Shown here one piece after another: positions 3,130-41,398 of a stretch of 64,000 nucleotides of DNA. The stretch covers positions 1 through 64,000 of the forward strand of contig JALVXB010000002.1 of NCBI GenBank assembly GCA_027023025.1. The letters are read 5' to 3'. Within the stretch, counting starts at the first letter, position 1. Every line of letters starts with the position of its first letter. The notes under the pieces were generated by a model, which ran no database searches, had not been told where the DNA came from, and was given only the letters and a program-made list of their open reading frames with translations. The translations under genes were made by a program, and so were the position numbers. The DNA is from Caldisericaceae bacterium. Lineage in GTDB: Bacteria > Caldisericota > Caldisericia > Caldisericales > Caldisericaceae.

Positions 3130-5472
3130 TTATTCTGGATCTACAGGTTCCAGTTTCTTTTCTTTAGACTTTCTTATTGCTTCTAATACACGCTCGGGTG
3201 TGTACGGTGAGCGATGCAATCTGATTCCAAGTGCATCGTGTAGCGCGTTTCCAATTGCAGGAATTGGACCATTAATGTTAATTTCTGCAACGGATTTTGC
3301 TCCGTAAGGGCCTGTTGGTTCGTATGTTTCTGCAAGAATTACTTTGATTTCTGGCAAATCTCTCGTCGATGGAATCTTATAGTCCATAAAGTTTGGATTT
3401 GTCATTCTACCAGATGAAGTAAAGTGGTATTCTTCTGTGAGTGCATAGCCTATGCCGTTGACCAGAGCGCCAATAATTTGCCCTTTTACGAGATTTGGAT
3501 TTATCGGAACTCCACAATCTACTGCAGCCACATACTTTATTGGTTTAATCTCGCCTGTTTCTTCGTCTACTTCTATTTCAACGAAGTGTACTGCAAATGG
3601 AGGAGGAGAATAAGGAGAAACAAAAGATCCTGCCGCGCCTATTTGATGCTGGTTCTTCACATATAAAGTGTCGTATGCAATTTCGGACAGCGTAATGCTC
3701 TTTCCGCTCTTTGGGCTGATAACTTTGCCATCTTCCAGGATGTAATCTTTTGAATCCGCTTCTCCAAATTTCTCTCTTGCAACTTCGAGTATTTGCTCTC
3801 TTACTTTAAGAGCGGCTTTTAATACTGCCCCACCAGAAACAAATGTACCGCTCGATGCGTATGCGCCTACATCAAATGGCGTAAGATCTGTATCTGAAGC
3901 GTATACAATTACTTGATCTGGCTTTATGCCTAGTGTTTCTGCGACTATTTGTGCTGCTACTGTGTCGAGTCCTGTTCCAATGTCTGTTCCGCCGTACAGC
4001 AAATTAAAGGAGCCGTCTTCGTTCATTTTCAATGTTGCTGCGCCCATGTCTATTAGCGGTATTCCTGAACCCTGCATGTGTATTGACATGCCTACTCCGC
4101 GCACTTTGCTTCCATTTCTTTTAGGTCTTCCGTATTTTTCAAGCCAACCTATTTCTTTTGCACCTTTTTCTAATAACTCATCCAGTGCGCAGCTCTGGAT
4201 GTATTGTGTTACACCTTCTCTACCTTCACCAAGTGCTCTAAATATTGGTGAGGTCTCTCCTGCTTTTATGTGGTTTTTCTTTCTTAGTTCCCAGGGATCC
4301 ATTCCAAGTTTTTCTGCAACCATGTCGATTGCCTGCTCAAGTGCTGCATATCCCTGTGTTGCGCCGTATCCTCTATAGGCACCTGCTACCGGCATATTTG
4401 TGTAAACGATATCGGAAACGAATTCTACATTTTCTGCCTTGTTATACAATGGAAGTGTTTTCGAGCCAGCATTTGACGCAACTGTAAGTCCGTGTGTACC
4501 GTATGCACCTGTGTTGCTTAAGGCGTACAAACTGATTGCGTGCAGCATACCGTCCTTCTTTGCCCCAATTTTTACCTTTACTTTGAATGGATGACGGGTC
4601 CTTGCTGAAATAAATTCTTCTTCTCTTGTGTAGAGAATTCTTGCGGGCCTGCCTGTCTTGAGTGTCACAAAGGAGCAAATTTCTTCAAGGATAATTTCCT
4701 GCTTTGTACCGAACCCTCCGCCGATGCGAGGTTTAATTACGCGTATTTTTTGCACTGGAATTTGTAAGGCTTGTGCGACAATTCTTCTTACATGGAACGG
4801 TACCTGCGTGGAGGTACGAATAACGAGCCTACTATATTCGTCAAGATAGGTAATTGTTACATGGGGTTCGATTGGTGTGTGTTGTGCATACTGCGTTTCG
4901 AATGTTTCTTCTACAACTACATCCGATTCCTTAAAGCCTTTTTCTACATCTCCTACTCTGATGTCTATGTGTGCTGCAAGGTTCTTTTTTGGATTGTATG
5001 CGCCTGTTATCCACGGTTCATCGTGGATTACTGGTGCACCGTCTTTCATTGCATCTTCTGGGTCTAAAATTGCAGGAAGTACTTTATACTTAACTTTAAT
5101 AAGTTTTAAGGCTTCTGCAGCCTGCTCTTCCGTTTCTGCTGCAACAGCTGCTACTCTGTCCCCTACGAATTTTACTTTCTCGTTAAACATCCAGGTGTCG
5201 TAGGGTGATGGCTCTGGCCATCCCTGTCCTGCAGTTGTATGTGGTACATGCGGGGTATTTTTATAAGTCAGTACCATTTTAACCCCAGGGTATTTTTCTG
5301 CTTCGCTCGTATCTATGTCTTCTATGATTGCATGTGCATGGGGGGAATATAAAAGTTTGATCTGTAATGTGTCGGGAAAACTTACATCGTCCACAAACAT
5401 TGGTTGCCCTGTTGCAAGAGACAATGCGTCAATCTTTTTTGTATCTTTGCCAATGCTCTTAAAATTACTCAT
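3130..5472 (-). CDS. xanthine dehydrogenase-type molybdopterin-binding subunit (locus 1)
   Basis: 780 aa, full length for a separate Mo subunit of the xanthine dehydrogenase/aldehyde oxidase family. The a/b hammerhead domain is at the N-terminus (TGQPMFVDDV), then cofactor-binding motifs GGGFGTKQE, YRGYGATQG and GGTDIGTGLD. Near the C-terminus, GAKSVAEI carries the Glu expected to be the catalytic base. It binds the Mo-pterin (often the cytosine dinucleotide form) and hydroxylates N-heterocycles. Last gene of a three-gene operon (FAD, 2Fe-2S, Mo) with overlaps. Beside ssnA and adenine deaminase, hypoxanthine/xanthine is the most likely substrate, but specificity is inferred from context only. 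Confidence 0.92.
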   Translation of the reverse strand: MSNFKSIGKDTKKIDALSLATGQPMFVDDVSFPDTLQIKLLYSPHAHAIIEDIDTSEAEKYPGVKMVLTYKNTPHVPHTTAGQGWPEPSPYDTWMFNEKVKFVGDRVAAVAAETEEQAAEALKLIKVKYKVLPAILDPEDAMKDGAPVIHDEPWITGAYNPKKNLAAHIDIRVGDVEKGFKESDVVVEETFETQYAQHTPIEPHVTITYLDEYSRLVIRTSTQVPFHVRRIVAQALQIPVQKIRVIKPRIGGGFGTKQEIILEEICSFVTLKTGRPARILYTREEEFISARTRHPFKVKVKIGAKKDGMLHAISLYALSNTGAYGTHGLTVASNAGSKTLPLYNKAENVEFVSDIVYTNMPVAGAYRGYGATQGYAALEQAIDMVAEKLGMDPWELRKKNHIKAGETSPIFRALGEGREGVTQYIQSCALDELLEKGAKEIGWLEKYGRPKRNGSKVRGVGMSIHMQGSGIPLIDMGAATLKMNEDGSFNLLYGGTDIGTGLDTVAAQIVAETLGIKPDQVIVYASDTDLTPFDVGAYASSGTFVSGGAVLKAALKVREQILEVAREKFGEADSKDYILEDGKVISPKSGKSITLSEIAYDTLYVKNQHQIGAAGSFVSPYSPPPFAVHFVEIEVDEETGEIKPIKYVAAVDCGVPINPNLVKGQIIGALVNGIGYALTEEYHFTSSGRMTNPNFMDYKIPSTRDLPEIKVILAETYEPTGPYGAKSVAEININGPIPAIGNALHDALGIRLHRSPYTPERVLEAIRKSKEKKLEPVDPE

Positions 5473-5938
5473 TTTTCCCCTCCTTTAAAAGTTTTACGGC
5501 AAATTTTACTGCTTCTACCTGCTGGACATATCCTGTACACCTGCATAAGTTGCCATCCAATGCTTTTTTGATGTCCTCGTCTGTAGGATTTGGGTTTTTC
5601 TTTAAAAGAGCGTATGCAGAAAGTATGGTTCCTGGTGTACAAAATCCACATTGAACAGCTCCAGTTTCTACAAATGCCTTTTGTAATGGATGAGGGTTAT
5701 TTAAGTCGCCAATTCCTTTTATAGTCGTGATGTGTTTTCCGTTTACTTTTGCAGCAAGAATTGTGCAGCTTGTATGTGGTTCTCCGTCGATAAGAACTGT
5801 GCATGCGCCACAGGTGCCTAAATAACAATTTCCTTTTATTTCAGTATGTCCATTTCTTCTTAAAACATCTAATAATACCTCACCTGGATGGATTTCATAC
5901 TCTTCTTCTTTGCCGTTTATTATGTATTTTACTTTCAT
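5465..5938 (-). CDS. xanthine dehydrogenase-type 2Fe-2S subunit (locus 1)
   Basis: 157 aa. The N-terminal plant-type ferredoxin domain has CYLGTCGACTV and a downstream Cys (TSC) for the first 2Fe-2S cluster. The C-terminal helical domain has CGFCTPG and CRCTGY for the second. All eight Cys ligands are present. It passes electrons from the Mo site to the FAD subunit. It overlaps the FAD gene by four bases (ATGA) and the Mo gene by eight, which indicates stoichiometric translation of the three subunits. Confidence 0.93.
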   Translation of the reverse strand: MKVKYIINGKEEEYEIHPGEVLLDVLRRNGHTEIKGNCYLGTCGACTVLIDGEPHTSCTILAAKVNGKHITTIKGIGDLNNPHPLQKAFVETGAVQCGFCTPGTILSAYALLKKNPNPTDEDIKKALDGNLCRCTGYVQQVEAVKFAVKLLKEGKNE

Positions 5939-6792
5939 TTTGCTGCCTCCAGTGCTTCTAATAAAATTCTCTTTGCATACACATGCGAGAGATTTTTACG
6001 ATATTCTTCTGTTGTTCTCGTGTCTGTGCCGACTTCTATGTGTTCTTCCACGAATTTACCAAATTCTTCTGCGAGATCTTCTGAAAGTTCTTTGCCTTTA
6101 AGAAATTCTCCTGCTTCCTGCATCAGGTATGCTGGTTTTGGCCTTGAGCCTGCAGCTACTCTGGCGGATGTTATCTTGTTTCCTTCTGTTTTTAGCAGTA
6201 TTGCCATGTTGAAAAGTGCAATGTCAGTTGCGTTTCTTACATAACGCTTCATTGAAAAGAAATAATCTTTTGAATATTTTTCCAGAATTACCTCTTTTAC
6301 GATCCTTTCTTTGAGTAGTCTTTTGAAGTTCTCTTTGTAGAAGTCATTTATAGAAACGATTTCGTCCCATTCACCGTCTGAAAGCACAATTTTAGCATTG
6401 AGCCCGTACAGAAGTGTTACGATGTCCGAATACGGTTCTCTTTTTCCAAGTGAACCACCTACTGTAATTTGATTCCTTAATAGTTCTGTTGCAATCTCTG
6501 GTAATATAGAATGCACGCTGCCGCTCATGTAGTCTTTAATTAAACCAGAATCAATAAGATTAGTAATAGTAGTCATTGCTCCTATTTTGATTCCTTCAGA
6601 GGAATCTTTTACATACGAAAGATCCAAATTGTCTAAGAAAATTAGAAATTTGATTCTGGGATTGGGAAACACTGAAATGTCCAATCCTCCACCTACTACT
6701 TCTGCCAAGTCTCCATGTGAACGAAGAATGTCTACTGTTTCCCTGATCGTTTGAGGATAATAGACTTCTTCGATTCCTTTTAATTTTAACAT
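5935..6792 (-). CDS. xanthine dehydrogenase-type FAD-binding subunit (locus 1)
   Basis: 285 aa, the usual size of the FAD (medium) subunit of the Mo hydroxylase family. The N-terminal region carries the AEVVGGGLDISV loop and then a TVGGSLGKREPYSDI flavin-binding segment, with a CO-dehydrogenase flavoprotein C-terminal domain at the end. It would deliver electrons to NAD or another acceptor. First gene of the FAD-FeS-Mo operon, divergent from ssnA. A good ribosome site (GGAGAGGAGGG) precedes its ATG. Confidence 0.92.
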   Translation of the reverse strand: MLKLKGIEEVYYPQTIRETVDILRSHGDLAEVVGGGLDISVFPNPRIKFLIFLDNLDLSYVKDSSEGIKIGAMTTITNLIDSGLIKDYMSGSVHSILPEIATELLRNQITVGGSLGKREPYSDIVTLLYGLNAKIVLSDGEWDEIVSINDFYKENFKRLLKERIVKEVILEKYSKDYFFSMKRYVRNATDIALFNMAILLKTEGNKITSARVAAGSRPKPAYLMQEAGEFLKGKELSEDLAEEFGKFVEEHIEVGTDTRTTEEYRKNLSHVYAKRILLEALEAAK

Positions 6793-31328: not shown

Positions 31329-32075
31329 TTAAGTTTCGTTTATCTCGAATATGTATTTTTGGTTTGCTTTAACAAATTCACCGTAATCGCCTTTTTTTAA
31401 GGCAAGTTTTGCTTGTTCGATGTTCTTTGCCTTCATAGAAGCAATGTGCGTTATACCCGTTCCTTTAAGTAGTTCTGGTAAAATTTGTCCTGTTGCTCCA
31501 ACAAGAATAACACTTTTTGCATTTTTGGAGCGTTCAACGATAAGGTCGATTGTGTTGTTAACCAGTACAGATGCAGTTGAAATCACGATGTCCATTTCGG
31601 GAAGCATTGAATATTCAAGTGTGTCGCTTAATACTTCTTCGTGCCATAATCTGGTATTTCTTTCGAATACATAGACATTTTTCCCGTTTTCTTTTAGCTC
31701 TTTTACTAAAGGCGGCATATTTCCTATGACACCAATTTTGCCGTTTAAGTGAGTTATTATTTCGTTTATGTCTATTTGTATGCTGTTGTTAATGTTTATA
31801 TAGTATTGAGATACTGCGTTTACCGTTGCGAGTGCAAGTGTCCTTTCGATTATATTTTTAGATTCGATTGCACTAATAAATGTCGAAGTTGATACATCGT
31901 GAAAGCTGTTTTCGTAGTGCTGAACTTCCTCGGGTATGGTCATTGCAACACCCATAGAACATTTGCCATCTTTTTCTACGATTACATACGAATACGGCAA
32001 TCCAAAAGAAAAATCTTCAATGGAAAAGCCGTTAGATATTTTTTCTACTCGTTTCTTTATAATATTTAAAATCAT
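31329..32075 (-). CDS. DUF4213/DUF364 protein (putative heavy-metal chelation)
   Basis: 248 aa. The N-terminal part fits DUF4213 and the C-terminal part (VGATGQILPELL, IVISTASVLVNNTID) fits DUF364, a Rossmann-like fold suggested to bind heavy metals or a metal chelate. Members are often found beside FecCD-type metal transporters, as here. Last gene of the six-gene operon that starts with the Phd-like gene; 14 bases after the ABC ATPase, with its own AAAGGAG. The biochemical role is unknown. Confidence 0.82.
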   Translation of the reverse strand: MILNIIKKRVEKISNGFSIEDFSFGLPYSYVIVEKDGKCSMGVAMTIPEEVQHYENSFHDVSTSTFISAIESKNIIERTLALATVNAVSQYYININNSIQIDINEIITHLNGKIGVIGNMPPLVKELKENGKNVYVFERNTRLWHEEVLSDTLEYSMLPEMDIVISTASVLVNNTIDLIVERSKNAKSVILVGATGQILPELLKGTGITHIASMKAKNIEQAKLALKKGDYGEFVKANQKYIFEINET

Positions 32076-32089
32076 TTTTGGCTCCTTTG

Positions 32090-32857
32090 CTATAGTAATT
32101 TCTCTGGAATTATAAATCTTTTATTTCCTAACTTTACGAGTCGTGACTTAAGAGAATAAAGAAGATCTATGTTTTCTTCGGTAATTACCTCGTCTGTATT
32201 TCCGTTTTTTAGTATTGTTCCTTCTTTTAGCAAAAAAACTTTGTCACAAAAACTTAACGCAAGATTTGGATCGTGTAACGAAACGAGGACAAGTTTCTTA
32301 AATCTTTTGGCAATTTTATTTATTACGGTAAGAACAATTAATTGGTTTCTAAAATCTAAAAAAGAGGTAGGTTCGTCAAATAACATTAGTTGCCCATTTT
32401 GCGATAGCGCTCTTGCAATAAGCGTCAGTCTTTTTTCGCCGCCACTTAAGGAAGTAAACGGTATGTTTTCAAACTTTGCGAGCTTTAGAGTCTGAATGGC
32501 TTTTTTGGTTTCTTCGATATCTTCTTTTTTAGGTCCTTCAAGTATGTTTATGTGTGGATTTCTACCCATAAGAACTATTTCAAATACCGTGTAAGGAAAG
32601 TTTACAGAAAATTCTTGGGGTGCATACGAAACAAACTTTGCCCTTTCCTTAAAGTTAAGTTTTTCTATACCTCTTTTATTTAGTTGAATTTCTCCTGCCT
32701 TTGGATTAAGGATGCCAGCTATACACTTAAGGAGAGTGGACTTGCCAGCACCGTTTGGCCCAAGTAAACATCCTATTCCGCCGGTAAGTTGTAGATCTAT
32801 GTTTTTAAGAATCTCTTTTTTGCCGTATGAAAAGTAAAGATGTTTAATTTTTAACAT
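32090..32857 (-). CDS. FecE-type metal/chelate ABC transporter ATPase
   Basis: 255 aa from the ATG at 32857, preceded by AGGAG; an upstream in-frame TTG lacks a site. Walker A GPNGAGKST, signature LSGGEKRLT, Walker B LMLFDEPTS, H-loop VSLHD. Pairs with the FecCD permease upstream, whose 3' end it overlaps by 14 bases. Such systems import iron-siderophores, cobalamin, haem or oxyanions (MolBCA-type molybdate/tungstate). In this window, with Mo enzymes, molybdate or tungstate is attractive but unproved. Confidence 0.9.
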   Translation of the reverse strand: MLKIKHLYFSYGKKEILKNIDLQLTGGIGCLLGPNGAGKSTLLKCIAGILNPKAGEIQLNKRGIEKLNFKERAKFVSYAPQEFSVNFPYTVFEIVLMGRNPHINILEGPKKEDIEETKKAIQTLKLAKFENIPFTSLSGGEKRLTLIARALSQNGQLMLFDEPTSFLDFRNQLIVLTVINKIAKRFKKLVLVSLHDPNLALSFCDKVFLLKEGTILKNGNTDEVITEENIDLLYSLKSRLVKLGNKRFIIPEKLL

Positions 32858-33788
32858 ACTTAAATCTCCTGGCAAGTATCAGTATAAGTAGAGGTGCTCC
32901 GATTAGTGATGTAATAACGCTAATAGGTAATTCTGTTGCTGCTATTGAACGAGCTATGTCGTCACAGAAGAGTAACAAAGTTGCTCCAACAAATGCAGAT
33001 GCAGGAACGAGCCTTCTATTGTCATAGCCTACTAATAATCTTGCAATGTGGGGGGATACAAGTCCTATCCATCCTATTATTCCTCCTATTGCCGTTGCAG
33101 AAGAAACAGAAAGTGCTGCAAGAACAATAATAACTTTTCTGTAAATGTTTACATTTAAGCCAAGTGATTTTGCTTCGCTATCGCCCAACGAGAGTATATT
33201 AAATGGCCAGCGTAAGAGAACTATTCCTATAATTCCTATCGATATTGGAAGAAGCAGGAATAAAAGATCTCTCCACCTCATTCCTGAGAAACTGCCAAGC
33301 AACCAGAAAACTATTGTGGGTAATTTATCGTATGGGTCGGCCATGTACTTTGCCATGCCTACCATTGAAGTAAACAGTGCAGACACCGCAATACCGGCAA
33401 GTAATAACCCTACTATACCATTGCCTACTAATTTGCTCATTTTGTACGCAATAGTTACTGCGATAATTCCAAAGATAAAAGAAGACAGTTGTATGTACAA
33501 GGGATTAAAAGAGAAGAACAGGATTGCAAGTACGGCCCCAAGGGCTGCACCACTACTTGCTCCTACGATATTAGGTCCTGCCAGGTAATTTCTGAACAAG
33601 TTCTGAAATGCAAGTCCTGCAAGTGAAAGCCCTGCTCCTGCAAGTGATGCAATTATTATTCGTGGTAATCTAACATCAAGCAGGATAGTTTTGCTTAATG
33701 TAGAAAAGTGCAATGGATTAACTAACAATCTTCCTGTAAATAACGAACCAATAAACACGAGGATGTACAGCGTTAAAAATTTTTTCAA
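32844..33788 (-). CDS. FecCD-type ABC transporter permease
   Basis: 314 aa with about nine to ten membrane segments. LPRIIIASLAGAGLSLAGLAFQ near the N-terminus begins with the FecCD/BtuC signature, and GGIIGWIGLVSPHIARLL is the coupling-helix region. TTG start after GGGAG. It overlaps the binding-protein gene by four bases and the ATPase gene by 14. Confidence 0.92.
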   Translation of the reverse strand: MKKFLTLYILVFIGSLFTGRLLVNPLHFSTLSKTILLDVRLPRIIIASLAGAGLSLAGLAFQNLFRNYLAGPNIVGASSGAALGAVLAILFFSFNPLYIQLSSFIFGIIAVTIAYKMSKLVGNGIVGLLLAGIAVSALFTSMVGMAKYMADPYDKLPTIVFWLLGSFSGMRWRDLLFLLLPISIGIIGIVLLRWPFNILSLGDSEAKSLGLNVNIYRKVIIVLAALSVSSATAIGGIIGWIGLVSPHIARLLVGYDNRRLVPASAFVGATLLLFCDDIARSIAATELPISVITSLIGAPLLILILARRFKYVKN

Positions 33789-34855
33789 TTCAAGTCTCCC
33801 ACTATTTTTATTTTGTCTATATCGAGGTTATAGAATTTTTTGTAGAAATTTGCTGCTTCTTCTTTTACATTTAAGCTGCCGAAAATTTCAGGGTGTATTG
33901 TTTTAGCCATCCAGTATAAACCCAGTATCCACTTTGGGGCAGGATAGTCCCAGCTTTCACCGTCGTTAGGCATTGCGTAAACCTTTCCTGATTTTACGGC
34001 CCTTATGTTTTTCCACGCAACATCATTCATTATCGTTTTTTTAAGATCTTCGCTTGTGTATTTAAGGGAATAGCTTACGGTAATTATTATGTCGGGATTC
34101 CATTTTGCTACTTGCTCGACATTTACGATATTCCATCCACCGGGAAGCGTATTTGATACACTTTCGCCACCTGCCATATTTATAATTGTGTTCTGAAAGT
34201 ATTCCTTTCCTGGTACTTTTAAAGATTTACTTCTCATGCTGTACTCTACGAGCATAACTTTTGGTTTGTTTTTGATTGTATTTGTTTTTTTCAATATTTT
34301 CTGCATATTTTCGTTGTAGTAATCGATAATCGAACGGGCTCTCTGTTCGTCGTTTAATATTTTACTTAATATCTCAATACTTTTAATGTAGTTTTTAGGA
34401 GTTTCCATGTTTAATGTAATTATTGGTATTTTAAGATTCCCAAGTTGTTTTTTAACCTGTTCGCTATTCCAAAATGCAGCAATTACGAGATCAGGATTAA
34501 TCTTTGCTATTTCTTCTACATTAGAACCATTTGGAGATGTAACCAATTTCATCTTTTTTGATACATCCGGGTAGGCTAACTTTATAAAAGCGTCGTTTAC
34601 TGCCATTTTTGTACTTCCAAAAACTTTATCTCCTTCTCCCATAAGAAACAGTGTTTGAGTAGCAAGTCCATACATTGAAACGATTTTTTGAACTGGTTGT
34701 TTAACTTTTATTTCTGTACCTGAGAAGTCTGTTATTGTAATAGTTTTTGTGCTTCTACTTGTTGATTGTTTACTCGAACAACCAGAAAGTGCAGATAGGG
34801 AAAGTAGGATAGTTAAAGCAACTACGATAATTCTAAGAATTGTTTTTCTATACAT
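33785..34855 (-). CDS. BtuF/FepB-type metal-chelate or oxyanion-binding lipoprotein
   Basis: 356 aa. Signal peptide ends at a lipobox LSGCSSK (near residue 26), then a Ser/Thr linker. Helical-backbone-type periplasmic binding domain: VQKIVSMYG, EIAKINPDLVIAA, NVEQVAKWNPDIIIT. It captures the ligand for the FecCD/FecE pair. Ligand unknown; the family also includes molybdate/tungstate-binding MolA. The gene overlaps the MobA-like gene upstream by eight bases and follows GAGGAGG. Confidence 0.88.
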   Translation of the reverse strand: MYRKTILRIIVVALTILLSLSALSGCSSKQSTSRSTKTITITDFSGTEIKVKQPVQKIVSMYGLATQTLFLMGEGDKVFGSTKMAVNDAFIKLAYPDVSKKMKLVTSPNGSNVEEIAKINPDLVIAAFWNSEQVKKQLGNLKIPIITLNMETPKNYIKSIEILSKILNDEQRARSIIDYYNENMQKILKKTNTIKNKPKVMLVEYSMRSKSLKVPGKEYFQNTIINMAGGESVSNTLPGGWNIVNVEQVAKWNPDIIITVSYSLKYTSEDLKKTIMNDVAWKNIRAVKSGKVYAMPNDGESWDYPAPKWILGLYWMAKTIHPEIFGSLNVKEEAANFYKKFYNLDIDKIKIVGDLN

Positions 34856-35462
34856 TATGTACCTCCTCTTTTAGGTGGACTTCTTTAAATAATATTTTTG
34901 AGAAGTATTTTAAGCCTTGCTCCTTTCTAATGTGTTTTATTCTTGAAAATCCGCTTTGGCTAATCACTATTGGATGCATTCGTTCGTTGGACACGAGGGG
35001 AATCGCAAAATCAATGTGTTTAAGCAGGACGACTTTTAAAAATCTGTCTAATAAGTTTGTGTTAAGCTGATTTTTGCTTACTGGCGTAATGATTGCAAAT
35101 TTTGAGAAAGGGCTTATGCAAAATAATCCTTGTTTGACTGAGGTGATTATTGGAGAATTTCTTTTATTGTTTATCGTAAACTTTACATTTTGTAAGTGTA
35201 TAATATCCTGTAAGTCTTGCTTTTCATTTCCTACGATGATGACTTCTCTAATTGCCGGAATATTTCTATACGAATGCATAAGTTTGACTGCTTGATGCAG
35301 AGATTTTTCCTGTGCTGAAAGGAGTATTAGAGAGAAGTATGGATAATCACCAGGATTTACATACGGTTTAAAGGTATGTTTATCTTCGTAAGAAAAATCG
35401 ATACCTTCTGAAGAAAACCGCACTTTCAATTTGTTTAGTAAAATTACTTCTCTTCCAGCCAT
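34848..35462 (-). CDS. degenerate MobA/MocA-like nucleotidyltransferase-fold protein
   Basis: 204 aa. The overall order resembles MobA-like molybdopterin nucleotidyltransferases: a first strand FSLILLSAQEKS where the family has L(A)AGxSxRMG, then REVIIVGN, NSPIITSVKQGL (family: G.S.S...GL), FAIITPVSKN (family: DQP) and AIPLVSNERMHPIVIS (family: P.....GHPV). The glycine-rich loop, Arg and the metal-binding Asp are gone, so nucleotidyl transfer is unlikely. It could be a sensor or scaffold. It overlaps the Phd-like gene by 19 bases and the binding-protein gene by eight, exactly where a toxin gene would be expected after an antitoxin. Confidence 0.5.
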   Translation of the reverse strand: MAGREVILLNKLKVRFSSEGIDFSYEDKHTFKPYVNPGDYPYFSLILLSAQEKSLHQAVKLMHSYRNIPAIREVIIVGNEKQDLQDIIHLQNVKFTINNKRNSPIITSVKQGLFCISPFSKFAIITPVSKNQLNTNLLDRFLKVVLLKHIDFAIPLVSNERMHPIVISQSGFSRIKHIRKEQGLKYFSKILFKEVHLKEEVHNV

Positions 35463-35656
35463 TTTTCTAAGTCTTTTTTCATCTCAGGAATTGTGTAAAA
35501 TTTTATTGTTTCCATTACTCTTTCGTATTCTTCTACTCCTAAAAGAACGGCAATTGGCTTTCCGTTTTTTGTAATAAGAAAAGGTGTTTCGTTACACTTG
35601 TCCAGTAATTGTAGAAGCGTTTTTTTGGCCTCAGTAGCGTTTATTGCTTTCAGCAT
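35444..35656 (-). CDS. Phd/YefM-family antitoxin-like protein
   Basis: 70 aa from the ATG at 35656, which has GGAGG at the right distance; a longer frame starts 27 bases earlier without one. INATEAKKTLLQLLDKC, ITKNGKPIAVL and EEYERVMETI are the Phd/YefM pattern, with a DNA-binding N-terminal domain and a flexible, charged C-terminus. No RelE, Doc or PIN toxin is nearby. The family autorepresses its own operon, so it may be the regulator of the metal-transport operon that follows. Confidence 0.85.
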   Translation of the reverse strand: MLKAINATEAKKTLLQLLDKCNETPFLITKNGKPIAVLLGVEEYERVMETIKFYTIPEMKKDLEKWLEEK

Positions 35657-35674
35657 TTTTACCTCCTGCATTTG

Positions 35675-35684
35675 TATGGTCATA
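35675..35684. promoter_or_regulatory. possible operator palindrome at the Phd-like promoter
   Basis: TATGGTCATA has TATG/CATA half-sites around a two-base centre. It lies just downstream of the -10 box and covers the expected transcription start. Phd-type proteins bind short palindromes at such positions. Confidence 0.3.
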
Positions 35685-35712
35685 ATTATAACAATAAAAT
35701 TGTTTCAGTCAA
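35685..35712 (-). promoter_or_regulatory. promoter of the six-gene metal operon
   Basis: On the minus strand TTGACT (35707-35712), 16-base spacer and TATAAT (35685-35690), about 30 bases before the Phd-like ATG. One of the best promoters in the window. Confidence 0.75.
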
Positions 35713-35752
35713 CTTGTTTTTCATTTTCTTTTCCGTGATTATACTTATGCAT

Positions 35753-36691
35753 ATGGATAAATTATATTTAGGTGTGGACTTTGGTGGAACGAAAGTTAAT
35801 TTTACCGTAATGAAAGGCAAAGAATTTATTAATCTTGCAAAAATTCGTACGGGCTCTATTAGTTCTGTTTACGATATTGTTGATAGAGTAAGCGTAGGCA
35901 TGGAAAAGATTGGGATAGATAAAATTCGTGCAATTGGAATTGGTATTGCTGGAATGGTAGATCAAATAAAGGGTGTTGGTGTGTATCTAACGAATTTAGG
36001 GAAACTTACGAATGTGAATCTTACTGACATTCTTTTCGAAAAATTTGGTGTGCCCGTATTTATAGACAATGATGTGGATGCTGCGCTTATTGCAGAAAAA
36101 GAGTTAGGAGCATTAAGGGGTATAAGGAATGCCGTATTTATTTCTGTTGGTACTGGCGTTGGGGGAGGAATTCTCATAGGAGGGAAAATATATATAGGTA
36201 AGAATGGATTTGCTGGAGAGTTTGGCCACATTACGGTAAGAGATAATGGTTTGAAGTGTAATTGCGGTAAAAGGGGATGTCTTGAAACTGAGTCTTCTGG
36301 AACTGGAATAGAAAGATATGTGAGAAATAGAATAAAAAAAAGGTGGAAGACCAGAATAGACAAAATTGAAGCTAAAAGAATTGCTGCTTTTGCTAAGTCG
36401 GGTGATGTGCTTGCAATTGAGGCTTACCAGAATGCCGTGCATTATCTTGCTTTAACTACTGGTAATTTAATAAATATATTTAATCCAGAAAAAGTTATAT
36501 TTGGAGGAGGAGTTGTGGAATCTGGGTTAATCGTTGAATCTGTGAAAGATCTCGTGAGTAAGTATGCATTACCTGCTTTTTTGAAAGAGGTTAAGATAGA
36601 GAAAAGTGCTTTAAAAGGAAATACTGGGGCAATAGGTGCTGCTTTGCTTGCCCGGGATCGATCCAGTGGAAAAAATATTTATATTTATTGA
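35753..36691 (+). CDS. ROK-family sugar kinase (glucokinase-like)
   Basis: 312 aa from the ATG at 35753 (MDKLYLGVDFGGTK). ATP-binding DFGGTK at the N-terminus, catalytic DNDVDA, GFAGEFGHI and the ROK zinc site CNCGKRGCLE. Phosphorylates glucose or another hexose, or N-acetyl sugars. No N-terminal helix-turn-helix, so it is a kinase and not a repressor. No ribosome site precedes the ATG; TATACT at 35740-35745 is seven bases away, suggesting leaderless translation. Confidence 0.88.
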   Translation: MDKLYLGVDFGGTKVNFTVMKGKEFINLAKIRTGSISSVYDIVDRVSVGMEKIGIDKIRAIGIGIAGMVDQIKGVGVYLTNLGKLTNVNLTDILFEKFGVPVFIDNDVDAALIAEKELGALRGIRNAVFISVGTGVGGGILIGGKIYIGKNGFAGEFGHITVRDNGLKCNCGKRGCLETESSGTGIERYVRNRIKKRWKTRIDKIEAKRIAAFAKSGDVLAIEAYQNAVHYLALTTGNLINIFNPEKVIFGGGVVESGLIVESVKDLVSKYALPAFLKEVKIEKSALKGNTGAIGAALLARDRSSGKNIYIY

Positions 36692-38389: not shown

Positions 38390-38527
38390 ATGTCTGCAAT
38401 AGTGGGGAATTTAAAAAAGTTATTTTTAGGTGAAGTTCTAATTGTATTTAAAAGATCGTGTCCTGTAAAGATCGATAGATATTTTATCTTTAAATTTATC
38501 ATATTAGGGGGTGGAAATGGCATTTAA
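38390..38527 (+). CDS. possible 45-codon leader ORF before Mo-hydroxylase locus 2
   Basis: Open from ATG 38390 to TAA 38525-38527, overlapping the start of the Mo subunit (ATG 38517) by 11 bases. GGGTGG lies ten bases before its ATG. The product would be hydrophobic and basic, with no recognisable family. The leader also has two copies of AAAGATCG and an inverted repeat TAAAGAT/ATCTTTA. It may be a regulatory leader or chance. Confidence 0.25.
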   Translation: MSAIVGNLKKLFLGEVLIVFKRSCPVKIDRYFIFKFIILGGGNGI

Positions 38528-40913
38528 ATACATTGGCAAGAAAGCCACGAGGCCGAATGTATTAGAAAGAGTAACCGGAAAAGCTATTTTTGTTGACGAC
38601 ATTAGACTTCCACAGATGCTTTATGCAAAAATTCTCTACCCAAAGTACGCTCATGCAAAAATTCTTTCTATTGACACAAGTGAAGCTGAGAAGATGCCAG
38701 GCGTTGTTAAAGTTGTTACAGGAAAAGGAATTAAGCATCCTTACGGTGATTGTCTTCACGATAGAGTGCCGATGGCCGTAGACAAAGTTCGTTACATTGG
38801 TGAACCTGTTGCAGCAGTGATAGCAGATACGGAGCGCCATGCAAGAGCTGCCTTAAGTAAAATAAAAGTAGAATACGAACCTCTTCCAGTTTATACTGAT
38901 GCATTAGATGCAATGAAAAAGGACGCCGTTCTAATTCACGAAAATCTTGATAAGTACTTTTATGTGACTCCTCTTTACAAGCCTACTCCGGGAACGAACA
39001 TTGCTTTATCCTATGAAATTAAGAAAGGTAACATCGAAGAAGGGATCAAACAGGCTGATGTAATCGTTGAAAAAGAATTTGTTTTTCATCACATGTCTTC
39101 TGTTGCAATTGAACCCCACACTGCGATTGCTATGCACCATCCTAATGGAATGATAGAAATATGGACTGCGAATGTGGGTCCTTTTGCCGTAAGGGAACAA
39201 GTTGCCGAATTTTTTGGAAAGAATGTCAGCGATGTAAGGGTGCATGTGCCGCACATTGGTGGATGTTTTGGATATAAATCGGATCCTTCGATTGAGCCAC
39301 TTGCTGCATATATTGCAAGTTTTGTGCCTGGCCGTCCCGTAAAACTTAAACTTACGAGAACAGAAGATTTTACGAGCACATTTATCGGTAGGGGTATGAG
39401 GGCACATGTAAAAGTAGGTGCAACCAAAGACGGTAAACTTACTGCGCTTGAAGAAACACTATATCTGTCAACTGGTGCTTATGCAGATACTGGCACAAAT
39501 GTACTTATAGTTTCCGTTCAGGCATCAGGTGGTGTTTATTACTTTCCTAATGCTCATGTGAAGGGGTATTCTGTCTATACAAATACTCCTCCCGTAGGTG
39601 CATTGAGAGCCTACGGGCATCCGGAAGCACAATTTGCTATTGAGAGAATGATGGATTTGCTTGCAAGAGAGTTGAATATGTCTCCTATTGAGATTAGAAA
39701 AAAGAACTTTATTACTGAAGGTAAAACAAATGTCGTAGGTGAGAAATTCAAGGCAAGTGATGGAAACTTGTTTAAGTGTCTTGAAAATGTAGTTGAGGCT
39801 ATACCTCCAGAAGAAGGACATAAAGAAGATGACGATTATTACTATGGTGTGGGCTATGCGGGATTGATAAAGGCACCTAAAGCCGCAACTTTTGCTTCTA
39901 AAGGATGCCATATAAAATTTAATGTAGATGGAACTGTTTCTTTGAATATGTCTGGAGGAGATGTAGGGCAGGGATTGTGGACGGTTGCCCGTCAGATAGC
40001 GGCTGAAGCATTAAAAATGCCACCCGAAAAAATCCGCGTATACAGTGAAATAGACACCCAATATTCACCGTGGGAATGGCAGACAGTTGGTTCTATGTTT
40101 ACTTTTCAGGGAGGAAATGCGATTATTCGTGCTGCAAACAAAGCAATTGATATTTTAAAGAAAAATGCTTCGCTTGTACTCGGAAGAGATCCTGATATGT
40201 TGGAATATGACGGAGAATATGTGTATGATAGGTCCTATCCTGATGTAAGAGTTGCGGTTAAAGACATTTGCCGTGGCTACGTAAAACCTGACGGAACGAC
40301 CATTGGAGAAGTAGTAAATGTAACGAGTTATTTTAGACTTCCTGGTGTTCAGAATCCTGACCCGGAAACTGGAATGGGTAGAACTGGTGGAAGCTATACG
40401 ATGGGGGTGCAGGGTGTAAAGTTGCGTATAAATAAGCATACCGGTGAAATCAAAGTAGAACATGTGGCAACTTCTATTGATGTAGGTAAGGTGATTTACC
40501 CTAAGGGAGCAGAAGGACAGGTGCTTGGTGGTGTCGTCCAGGGATTGGGAGAAGCATTATTTGAGCAAATTCGTTTTAAGGAAAATGGTGCACTCGAAAA
40601 TCCGAACCTTATTAAGTATAAAATCCCTCGTCTTGAAGACATACCGGACAAGTTTACTATAAAGTTTGTTGAAACCCCCGACGCGATAGGGCCTTACGGT
40701 GCGAGAGGTCTTGGTGAGCATCCTGTGATTGGTGTTCCTCCTGCCGTTGTAAATGCTATTTATAATGCGATTGGCTACGATTTCTACGAGGTCCCTGTTA
40801 CGAGTGATATGATTAAGAAAGTCCTGGAAGAAAAAGGCATGCTTAAAGAGCAGCCCAATGAAACTACTAAGGCTTCCTTAAGTGAAACTGTAGATAGAGA
40901 TAAGGAGGGATAG
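38517..40913 (+). CDS. molybdopterin-binding subunit of a second Mo hydroxylase (locus 2)
   Basis: 798 aa from the ATG at 38517, after AGGGGGTGG; a GTG six bases earlier overlaps that site. Same family as the locus 1 subunit but clearly divergent. N-terminal TGKAIFVDDIRL, then GGCFGYKSDP, LRAYGHPEAQ (for the usual FRG(F/Y)G), GGDVGQGLW and, near the end, GARGLGEHPV with the expected catalytic Glu. Hydroxylates an N-heterocycle or aldehyde. Only a 2Fe-2S gene follows; no FAD subunit is encoded in this locus. Confidence 0.92.
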   Translation: MAFKYIGKKATRPNVLERVTGKAIFVDDIRLPQMLYAKILYPKYAHAKILSIDTSEAEKMPGVVKVVTGKGIKHPYGDCLHDRVPMAVDKVRYIGEPVAAVIADTERHARAALSKIKVEYEPLPVYTDALDAMKKDAVLIHENLDKYFYVTPLYKPTPGTNIALSYEIKKGNIEEGIKQADVIVEKEFVFHHMSSVAIEPHTAIAMHHPNGMIEIWTANVGPFAVREQVAEFFGKNVSDVRVHVPHIGGCFGYKSDPSIEPLAAYIASFVPGRPVKLKLTRTEDFTSTFIGRGMRAHVKVGATKDGKLTALEETLYLSTGAYADTGTNVLIVSVQASGGVYYFPNAHVKGYSVYTNTPPVGALRAYGHPEAQFAIERMMDLLARELNMSPIEIRKKNFITEGKTNVVGEKFKASDGNLFKCLENVVEAIPPEEGHKEDDDYYYGVGYAGLIKAPKAATFASKGCHIKFNVDGTVSLNMSGGDVGQGLWTVARQIAAEALKMPPEKIRVYSEIDTQYSPWEWQTVGSMFTFQGGNAIIRAANKAIDILKKNASLVLGRDPDMLEYDGEYVYDRSYPDVRVAVKDICRGYVKPDGTTIGEVVNVTSYFRLPGVQNPDPETGMGRTGGSYTMGVQGVKLRINKHTGEIKVEHVATSIDVGKVIYPKGAEGQVLGGVVQGLGEALFEQIRFKENGALENPNLIKYKIPRLEDIPDKFTIKFVETPDAIGPYGARGLGEHPVIGVPPAVVNAIYNAIGYDFYEVPVTSDMIKKVLEEKGMLKEQPNETTKASLSETVDRDKEG

Positions 40914-40915
40914 TT

Positions 40916-41398
40916 ATGCAAGCGGTTAATGTTACTTTGAATGGGGAAAAGAAGACTGTGTATATAGAAGGAGGAGAAACCCTTCTTGATGTACTGAGGG
41001 AAAACTTAGAACTTACAGGTACAAAATATGGTTGCGGCCAGGGTGCTTGTGGTGCTTGCACGGTTGTGGTAAACGGCGAAGCAGTTAAGAGTTGCATGGT
41101 TTTATTCAGAAGATTGGAGGGTGCTGAGATCCTTACGATTGAGGGTATATCTGATGGTGTCCACTTGCATCCTATACAGAAAGCCTTTGTTGACGCTGAT
41201 GCAGTTCACTGTGGTTTTTGCACACCAGGAATTATAATGGAATTGTATGCACTTTTTACAAAAAACCCTGATGTTAGTGAAGAGGAAATTAAAAAAGCAT
41301 TAAATAAGCATTTGTGTAGATGTACAGGCTACCTTCCATTGATTGAGGCTGCTAAACTGGCTCAAAAATATTATAAAGAATCCCTGAAGGAGGTGTAA
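40916..41398 (+). CDS. 2Fe-2S subunit of Mo hydroxylase (locus 2)
   Basis: 160 aa. GCGQGACGACTV plus a downstream Cys (KSCMV) for the ferredoxin-type cluster, and CGFCTPG and CRCTGY for the second. All ligands present. It lies two bases after the Mo subunit and two before the amidohydrolase. Without a FAD subunit it must hand electrons to another partner, such as a ferredoxin or the locus 1 FAD subunit. Confidence 0.93.
   Translation: MQAVNVTLNGEKKTVYIEGGETLLDVLRENLELTGTKYGCGQGACGACTVVVNGEAVKSCMVLFRRLEGAEILTIEGISDGVHLHPIQKAFVDADAVHCGFCTPGIIMELYALFTKNPDVSEEEIKKALNKHLCRCTGYLPLIEAAKLAQKYYKESLKEV

Follow-up and report, generated by a model that had tools for sequence, protein, structure and literature searches.

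Why should the operon of an ABC importer begin with the genes for an antitoxin-like DNA-binding protein and a MobA-like protein, and what does such an importer carry? This question is raised by a locus in a 64,000-nucleotide stretch of DNA from a Caldisericaceae bacterium (contig JALVXB010000002.1), which is hereafter referred to as the window. The locus had previously been described, in what we call the original prediction, as a six-gene operon for Mo/W acquisition with internal regulation.

Gene content of the operon and degeneration of the MobA-like protein

The operon lies on the minus strand, from position 35656 down to position 31329, and all of its six genes match named Pfam families. 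The first gene (35444..35656), with an AGGAGG sequence ahead of its start at 35656, encodes a Phd/YefM-type DNA-binding protein of 70 aa (Phd_YefM, PF02604, 2.6e-17). The second gene (34848..35462) encodes a 204-aa pseudo-MobA/MocA protein, a predicted sensor domain, whose match to NTP_transf_3 (2.6e-6) is weak (28 bits versus a cut-off of 27). These are followed by the genes for the binding lipoprotein of a FecCD-type importer (33785..34855; Peripla_BP_2, 1.3e-26), a FecCD-type permease (32844..33788; FecCD, 9.4e-81), a FecE-type ATPase (32090..32857; ABC_tran, 1.3e-27) and a DUF4213/DUF364 protein (31329..32075; DUF364, 1.9e-31; DUF4213, 1.7e-11), which is a full-length homologue of the known family members Dhaf4260 and 3npg (solved structure 3npg, 1.5e-74). 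The gene families had been predicted correctly, and the predicted overlaps of 19, 8, 4 and 14 bases and the single 14-base gap are exact, given the Phd start at 35656 and the ATPase start at 32857. The Mo-related surroundings were also recovered: mogA (PF00994) is located near the operon, and two nearby gene clusters (3130-6792 on the minus strand and 38511-41398 on the plus strand) can be read from their sequences as xanthine-dehydrogenase-type Mo hydroxylases.

The MobA-like protein is predicted to adopt a GT-A nucleotidyltransferase fold (AlphaFold pLDDT 86.7), and the Foldseek neighbours of the model include IspD, the MocA-like protein Rv0371c and 3d5n (about 1e-7 to 1e-8). It shares this fold and the acceptor-side HP motif with MobA/MocA nucleotidyltransferases (TIGR03310, NF045665, 3d5n and Rv0371c) but scores far below the curated cut-offs. 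The earlier view that it is a dead enzyme is borne out by the alignment: the LAAGxSxRMG NTP-binding loop and the metal-binding Asp (DxP) are missing in 17 of the 17 aligned pair and fusion sequences, whereas 16 of 17 MocA-like paralogues retain the loop and most retain the Asp. The GDxGAR motif has also been lost, the HP motif has been kept, and a new RKExGxxY motif is conserved. Ten residues are invariant, excluding the start Met (K94, S108, K110, H163, P164, R179, K180, E181, G183 and Y186). This loss on the NTP side, together with conservation on the acceptor side, is the reason that molybdopterin or Moco is proposed here as the putative ligand. Internal TGA codons in matches to the MobA-like protein were considered as selenocysteine codons, a reading that was rejected; they are most likely the stop codons of the genes themselves.

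Conservation of the pair, exchange of its transporter and domain fusions

Each of the two proteins was searched for in 60 related genomes besides that of the window. The Phd/MobA-like pair was found in 17 of these, in genera belonging to three families (f1, f3 and f7) of the phylum but not in all family members, and both genes are missing from several further genera of the class. The Phd gene lies directly ahead of the MobA-like gene, mostly with an overlap of 11-28 bases, and the Phd protein is 99% identical to that of the window in the sister genome G001 and 59-62% identical in sister genera. In two further genomes, G016 and G027, the contig ends within the locus, so that only the MobA-like gene is visible; in G027, this gene is itself truncated and adjoins ModABC. 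The recurrence in 17 related genomes indicates that the arrangement is not due to chance. In several genomes, the pair adjoins genes unrelated to Mo, such as iscS/nifU or genes for an acyl-CoA dehydrogenase and a nucleoside kinase. Genes for another degenerate MobA-like protein and for an S component of the ECF type (L036:4290-5557) are located inside the ModABC operon of G027.

Behind the pair, the window's genome (G000) and G001 carry the FecCD system with DUF364. In G002, G009, G010, G012 and G016, an NMT1/SsuA-like binding protein is encoded in this place and, if the contig extends far enough, so are a BPD_transp_1 permease, an ATPase and a DUF364 protein that differs from that of the window. 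The flanks of the G002 locus match those of the window, with a divergent ROK gene and Roadblock, MogA, biotin-ligase-like and Mo-hydroxylase genes; a metallo-beta-lactamase-like gene is the matching flank in G010, and the same gene and an HtrA-like gene are those in G012. Thus, the transporter has been swapped at one syntenic locus, FecCD plus DUF364 versus NMT1-type ABC plus DUF364, while the Phd/MobA head has remained constant. The window's genome itself contains an NMT1-type cassette away from the window (C21), the binding protein of which is 62-64% identical. The neighbourhood is conserved in part: the pair recurs in three families, but the FecCD cassette is replaced in sister genera. In G007, G015, G051 and G053, the pair is absent beside related transporters, yet these transporters carry the predicted operator described below, with the pair located at another place in the same genome. 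The original prediction can be refined accordingly: the pair is the separable regulatory unit, and the transporter behind it is exchangeable.

DUF364 is a constant companion in the alternative cassettes, and in G007 and G015 a related DUF364 follows ModABC and a protein with a molybdopterin-binding domain (the domain was scored in G007). A single-sequence DUF364 scan of the whole genome collection recovered the sister genome only, and a profile query would reach further. The NMT1/SsuA-like ABC transporter (L022:9395-12017 and L181:6506-9846), with DUF364 following it in L181 and relatives, is a candidate Mo/W importer. Its ATPase (335 aa) has about 120 C-terminal residues that do not match any Pfam family. 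Small NTPases recur beside DUF364/FecCD transport genes (L227:6801-7307, PF03266; L127:1844-2338 and L223:1935-2522, both judged by inspection of the sequence). Another candidate oxyanion-type ABC importer, with a PF13531 binding protein, is present in the window's genome (C27; L182:4279-7070) and is not accompanied by the operator.

A profile search of 386 genomes, extended to the phyla of three matches, identified genes from other phyla in which the Phd and MobA-like domains are fused. In G217 (L124), both are in one reading frame that is directly followed by modA/modB-like genes, and single reading frames also encode both domains in G124 (L125) and G391 (L156). The fusion in G390 (L155) ends an array of modABC-moeA-moaA-moaC-mogA-MOSC, in which the mod genes and moeA, moaA, moaC and mogA were assigned by reading the sequence. 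In G261 (L135:796-5721), a fusion heads a porin-ModABC operon. The modA genes of L036, L124 and L135 score above the curated cut-off of TIGR01256. Another broad sample, of 385 genomes that overlapped largely with the first, yielded no further fusions, and a search for a plasmid copy of the fusion found none. A tree built together with MocA-like paralogues places the pairs in a single clade with three of the fusions (97/96 support), and the G261 fusion lies on a long branch among MocA-like proteins; this fusion seems to represent a separate, convergent event. The Phd part of the L124 fusion stops after about 50 residues and does not have the C-terminal toxin-binding tail; the separate Phd genes encode a tail of variable sequence. 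The AlphaFold model of the L125 fusion consists of a Phd-like part, judged by the order of helices and strands, followed by a GT-A fold.

Promoter and predicted operator

The strong promoter that had been proposed for the operon was confirmed as a sigma-70-type promoter (TTGACT-16-TATAAT, with TG ahead of the -10 box; 35685..35712, minus strand), which agrees with the consensus at 11 of 12 positions and is the best of 13 in the region. The -10 box lies within a predicted operator (35664..35707, minus strand), a 44-bp near-palindrome of sequence TGAAACAATTTTATTGTTATAATTATGACCATACAAATGCAGGA (E 1.2e-8 in the window's genome). Although an initial palindrome search yielded 6-bp arms only, a comparison of promoters revealed that the 44-bp element, which is centred on the -10 box and has the consensus TTATGCATTATTATGGTTATAATTATAACCATAATAATGCATAA, is common to the Phd promoters of eight genomes (G000, G001, G002, G009, G010, G012, G050 and G052). 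A ROK-like gene (35750-36691 of the window) is divergent from the operon, so that the intergenic region with the operator is common to both; the same arrangement is present in G002.

When a 22-base operator pattern was searched for in 18 whole genomes with up to 3 mismatches, 10 sites were obtained. Five of these are Phd promoters and one is the modA promoter of G007; the other four, with 3 mismatches, are at places unrelated to Mo. We also trained a sequence-only model (R1) on six Phd promoters, each in both orientations, and ran it on 32 whole genomes. With the Phd promoters of G001 and G052 set aside as near-identical, it identified only five new sites at E<1e-3, all of which front Mo-type or transporter/DUF364 operons. 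One precedes the NMT1-DUF364 (NitT/Tau-type transporter) cassette of the window's genome (7.6e-7). In G053 (3.7e-6) and G051 (5.0e-4), the site lies in the intergenic region that separates DUF364 from a FecCD transport operon, and the remaining two are in the modA promoters of G015 (3.8e-4) and G007 (7.0e-4). These E-values are rough; the next matches have values of at least 0.008, and those inspected are mostly at unrelated places. The weaker matches include one that precedes a FecCD/DUF364 operon in G023 (0.017) and one close to DUF364 in G019 (0.034). A site at E<1e-3 is present in 12 of 20 pair-bearing genomes, a group that includes G016 and G027, where one partner is cut off, and in none of the 12 genomes without the pair (Fisher p 0.0006, phylogeny being ignored). 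Three pair-bearing genomes (G008, G011 and G017) gave no R1 site, and those of the third family gave weak sites only; such genomes, and those in which the pair adjoins iscS/nifU or acyl-CoA dehydrogenase genes, may use a diverged operator. No palindrome upstream of the fusions, the third-family pairs or the acyl-CoA dehydrogenase-linked pairs was convincing when the number of positions tried was allowed for. Imperfect TGTACA-containing palindromes occur upstream of modA in G390 (L155:703-742) and upstream of the fusion gene in G217 (L124:6088-6119) but are not significant after correction for multiple testing.

The predicted operator is thus common to the pair's own promoter and to Mo transport operons. 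Its position over the -10 box points to repression, and autoregulation together with trans-acting control of transporters is consistent with a homeostatic repressor.

A proposed two-part repressor of Mo/W uptake

We consider it probable that the Phd protein and the pseudo-MobA protein form a two-part repressor of a Mo/W-uptake regulon, in which the dead enzyme domain acts as the sensor. The conservation of the pair, its fusions, the loss of the catalytic motifs and the operator shared by transport operons are the computed support for this proposal, from which we infer a physical complex, its binding to DNA, its ligand and the direction of the response. In the proposed mechanism, the Phd/YefM-type protein would bind DNA and the MobA-like protein would sense the Mo/W status of the cell, most likely via molybdopterin or Moco and less likely via the oxyanion itself. 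When the ligand is replete, the complex would switch the operon off by occupying the 44-bp operator that spans the -10 box; upon ligand shortage, it would be released, allowing the transporter and DUF364 to be made. The same regulator would act in trans on further Mo/W-transport operons where these are present. The expectation of Mo/W acquisition with internal regulation is supported by the occurrence of Phd and MobA-like domains beside ModABC or Moco-synthesis genes in other lineages and by the predicted operator at modA and transporter/DUF364 promoters. Against the proposal stand the pair-bearing genomes with weak R1 sites or none, the pairs that adjoin genes unrelated to Mo, and the C27 importer of the window's genome, which has no such operator.

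Phd/YefM proteins are known as antitoxins, and the pair resembles a toxin-antitoxin module in its DNA-binding domain, its antitoxin-first order with overlapping frames and its predicted autoregulatory palindrome; if Phd merely neutralized a MobA-like toxin, its location in transport operons would be incidental. We regard this as very improbable, because the same predicted operator is found at unlinked transport operons, linkage to mod/moa genes recurs, and Phd occurs fused to its partner, in L124 without a neutralizing tail. The sole partner of Phd at the locus is the NTP_transf_3-like protein, a degenerate nucleotidyltransferase for which PADLOC gave no toxin or defence match, and no cognate toxin (Doc, YoeB, RelE or similar) lies beside Phd. 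It is also rather improbable, although less so, that Phd is the sole regulator and the MobA-like protein a working accessory protein, such as a molybdopterin carrier or Moco chaperone. The invariant acceptor-side residues imply a bound ligand and some fusions lie in Moco-synthesis loci, as such a role would predict, but two separate domain fusions argue for a shared regulatory role, and the 70-aa Phd protein has no ligand domain of its own.

The identity of the cargo deserves more weight. Most FecCD-type importers transport iron chelates, heme or B12, the permease has its best NCBIfam relatives among BtuC-like proteins, and the lipoprotein matches the solved structure of MolA (HI_1472, 4e-23) with a lower score than two other binding proteins, one of which is named an iron-complex protein. 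The system could thus respond to another nutrient (an iron chelate, cobalamin, heme or an unknown organometal), with the Mo links elsewhere reflecting a different ligand of a broader family. We consider this unlikely, since the same predicted operator is present at ModABC with a molybdopterin-binding protein, and since DUF364, found in all alternative cassettes, has a published context with ABC transporters and molybdate and tungstate transport (PMC2954201). As had been pointed out, the FecCD-type class includes molybdate importers, the precedent being the type II importer MolBC-A (PMC4031551). Mo/W is favoured over other metals by the links to ModABC and to Moco-synthesis genes, by a molybdopterin-binding protein within the predicted regulon and by the published context of DUF364, and we infer that it is also the cargo of the FecCD importer.

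The proposed two-part repressor of Mo/W uptake resembles ModE and other Mo/W transcription factors in its proposed control of molybdate/tungstate uptake genes and in its palindromic operator near the promoter. ModE is composed of winged-helix and TOBE domains, whereas the present system combines a Phd/YefM DNA-binding part with a dead MobA/MocA-like part, and neither winged-helix nor TOBE/Mop domains were detected by Pfam in the window's Phd or MobA-like protein. The MolBC-A system (HI1470-72) consists of the same class of binding protein, FecCD permease and ATPase, with MolA among the closest solved binding proteins, but we know of no Phd/MobA regulator described with it. DUF364 differs from its known setting in that it belongs here to transporter cassettes that replace one another at a single locus, several of them under one predicted operator. 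The candidate Moco riboswitch senses the finished cofactor and controls molybdate transport and Moco genes (PMC2408646); it is an RNA element, whereas the present system is proposed to be protein-based. No Rfam family was found in the window and, therefore, no Moco riboswitch is present there. We found no description of the pair, or of a system of this composition, in the open-access literature, in agreement with the original prediction, and to our knowledge the architecture of the regulator matches none known. Regulation of Mo/W uptake is a known kind of function; what is new is the architecture.

It is possible, though we advance this more tentatively, that the pair represents a new class of cofactor-status regulator, in which an antitoxin-type DNA-binder and a pathway pseudo-enzyme that reads molybdopterin or Moco directly control interchangeable Mo/W importers in several bacterial phyla, as a pair or as multiple fusions. 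If the proposal is true, Mo/W homeostasis would gain a regulator without any domain in common with ModE or the Moco riboswitch, a metal-cofactor switch for which a DNA-binding domain of the antitoxin type and a biosynthetic enzyme that is now dead have been recruited. The operator would also serve as a marker for Mo/W importers, including the NMT1-type ABC and FecCD plus DUF364 candidates, and DUF364, a long-standing puzzle, would gain a Mo/W context that is open to testing.
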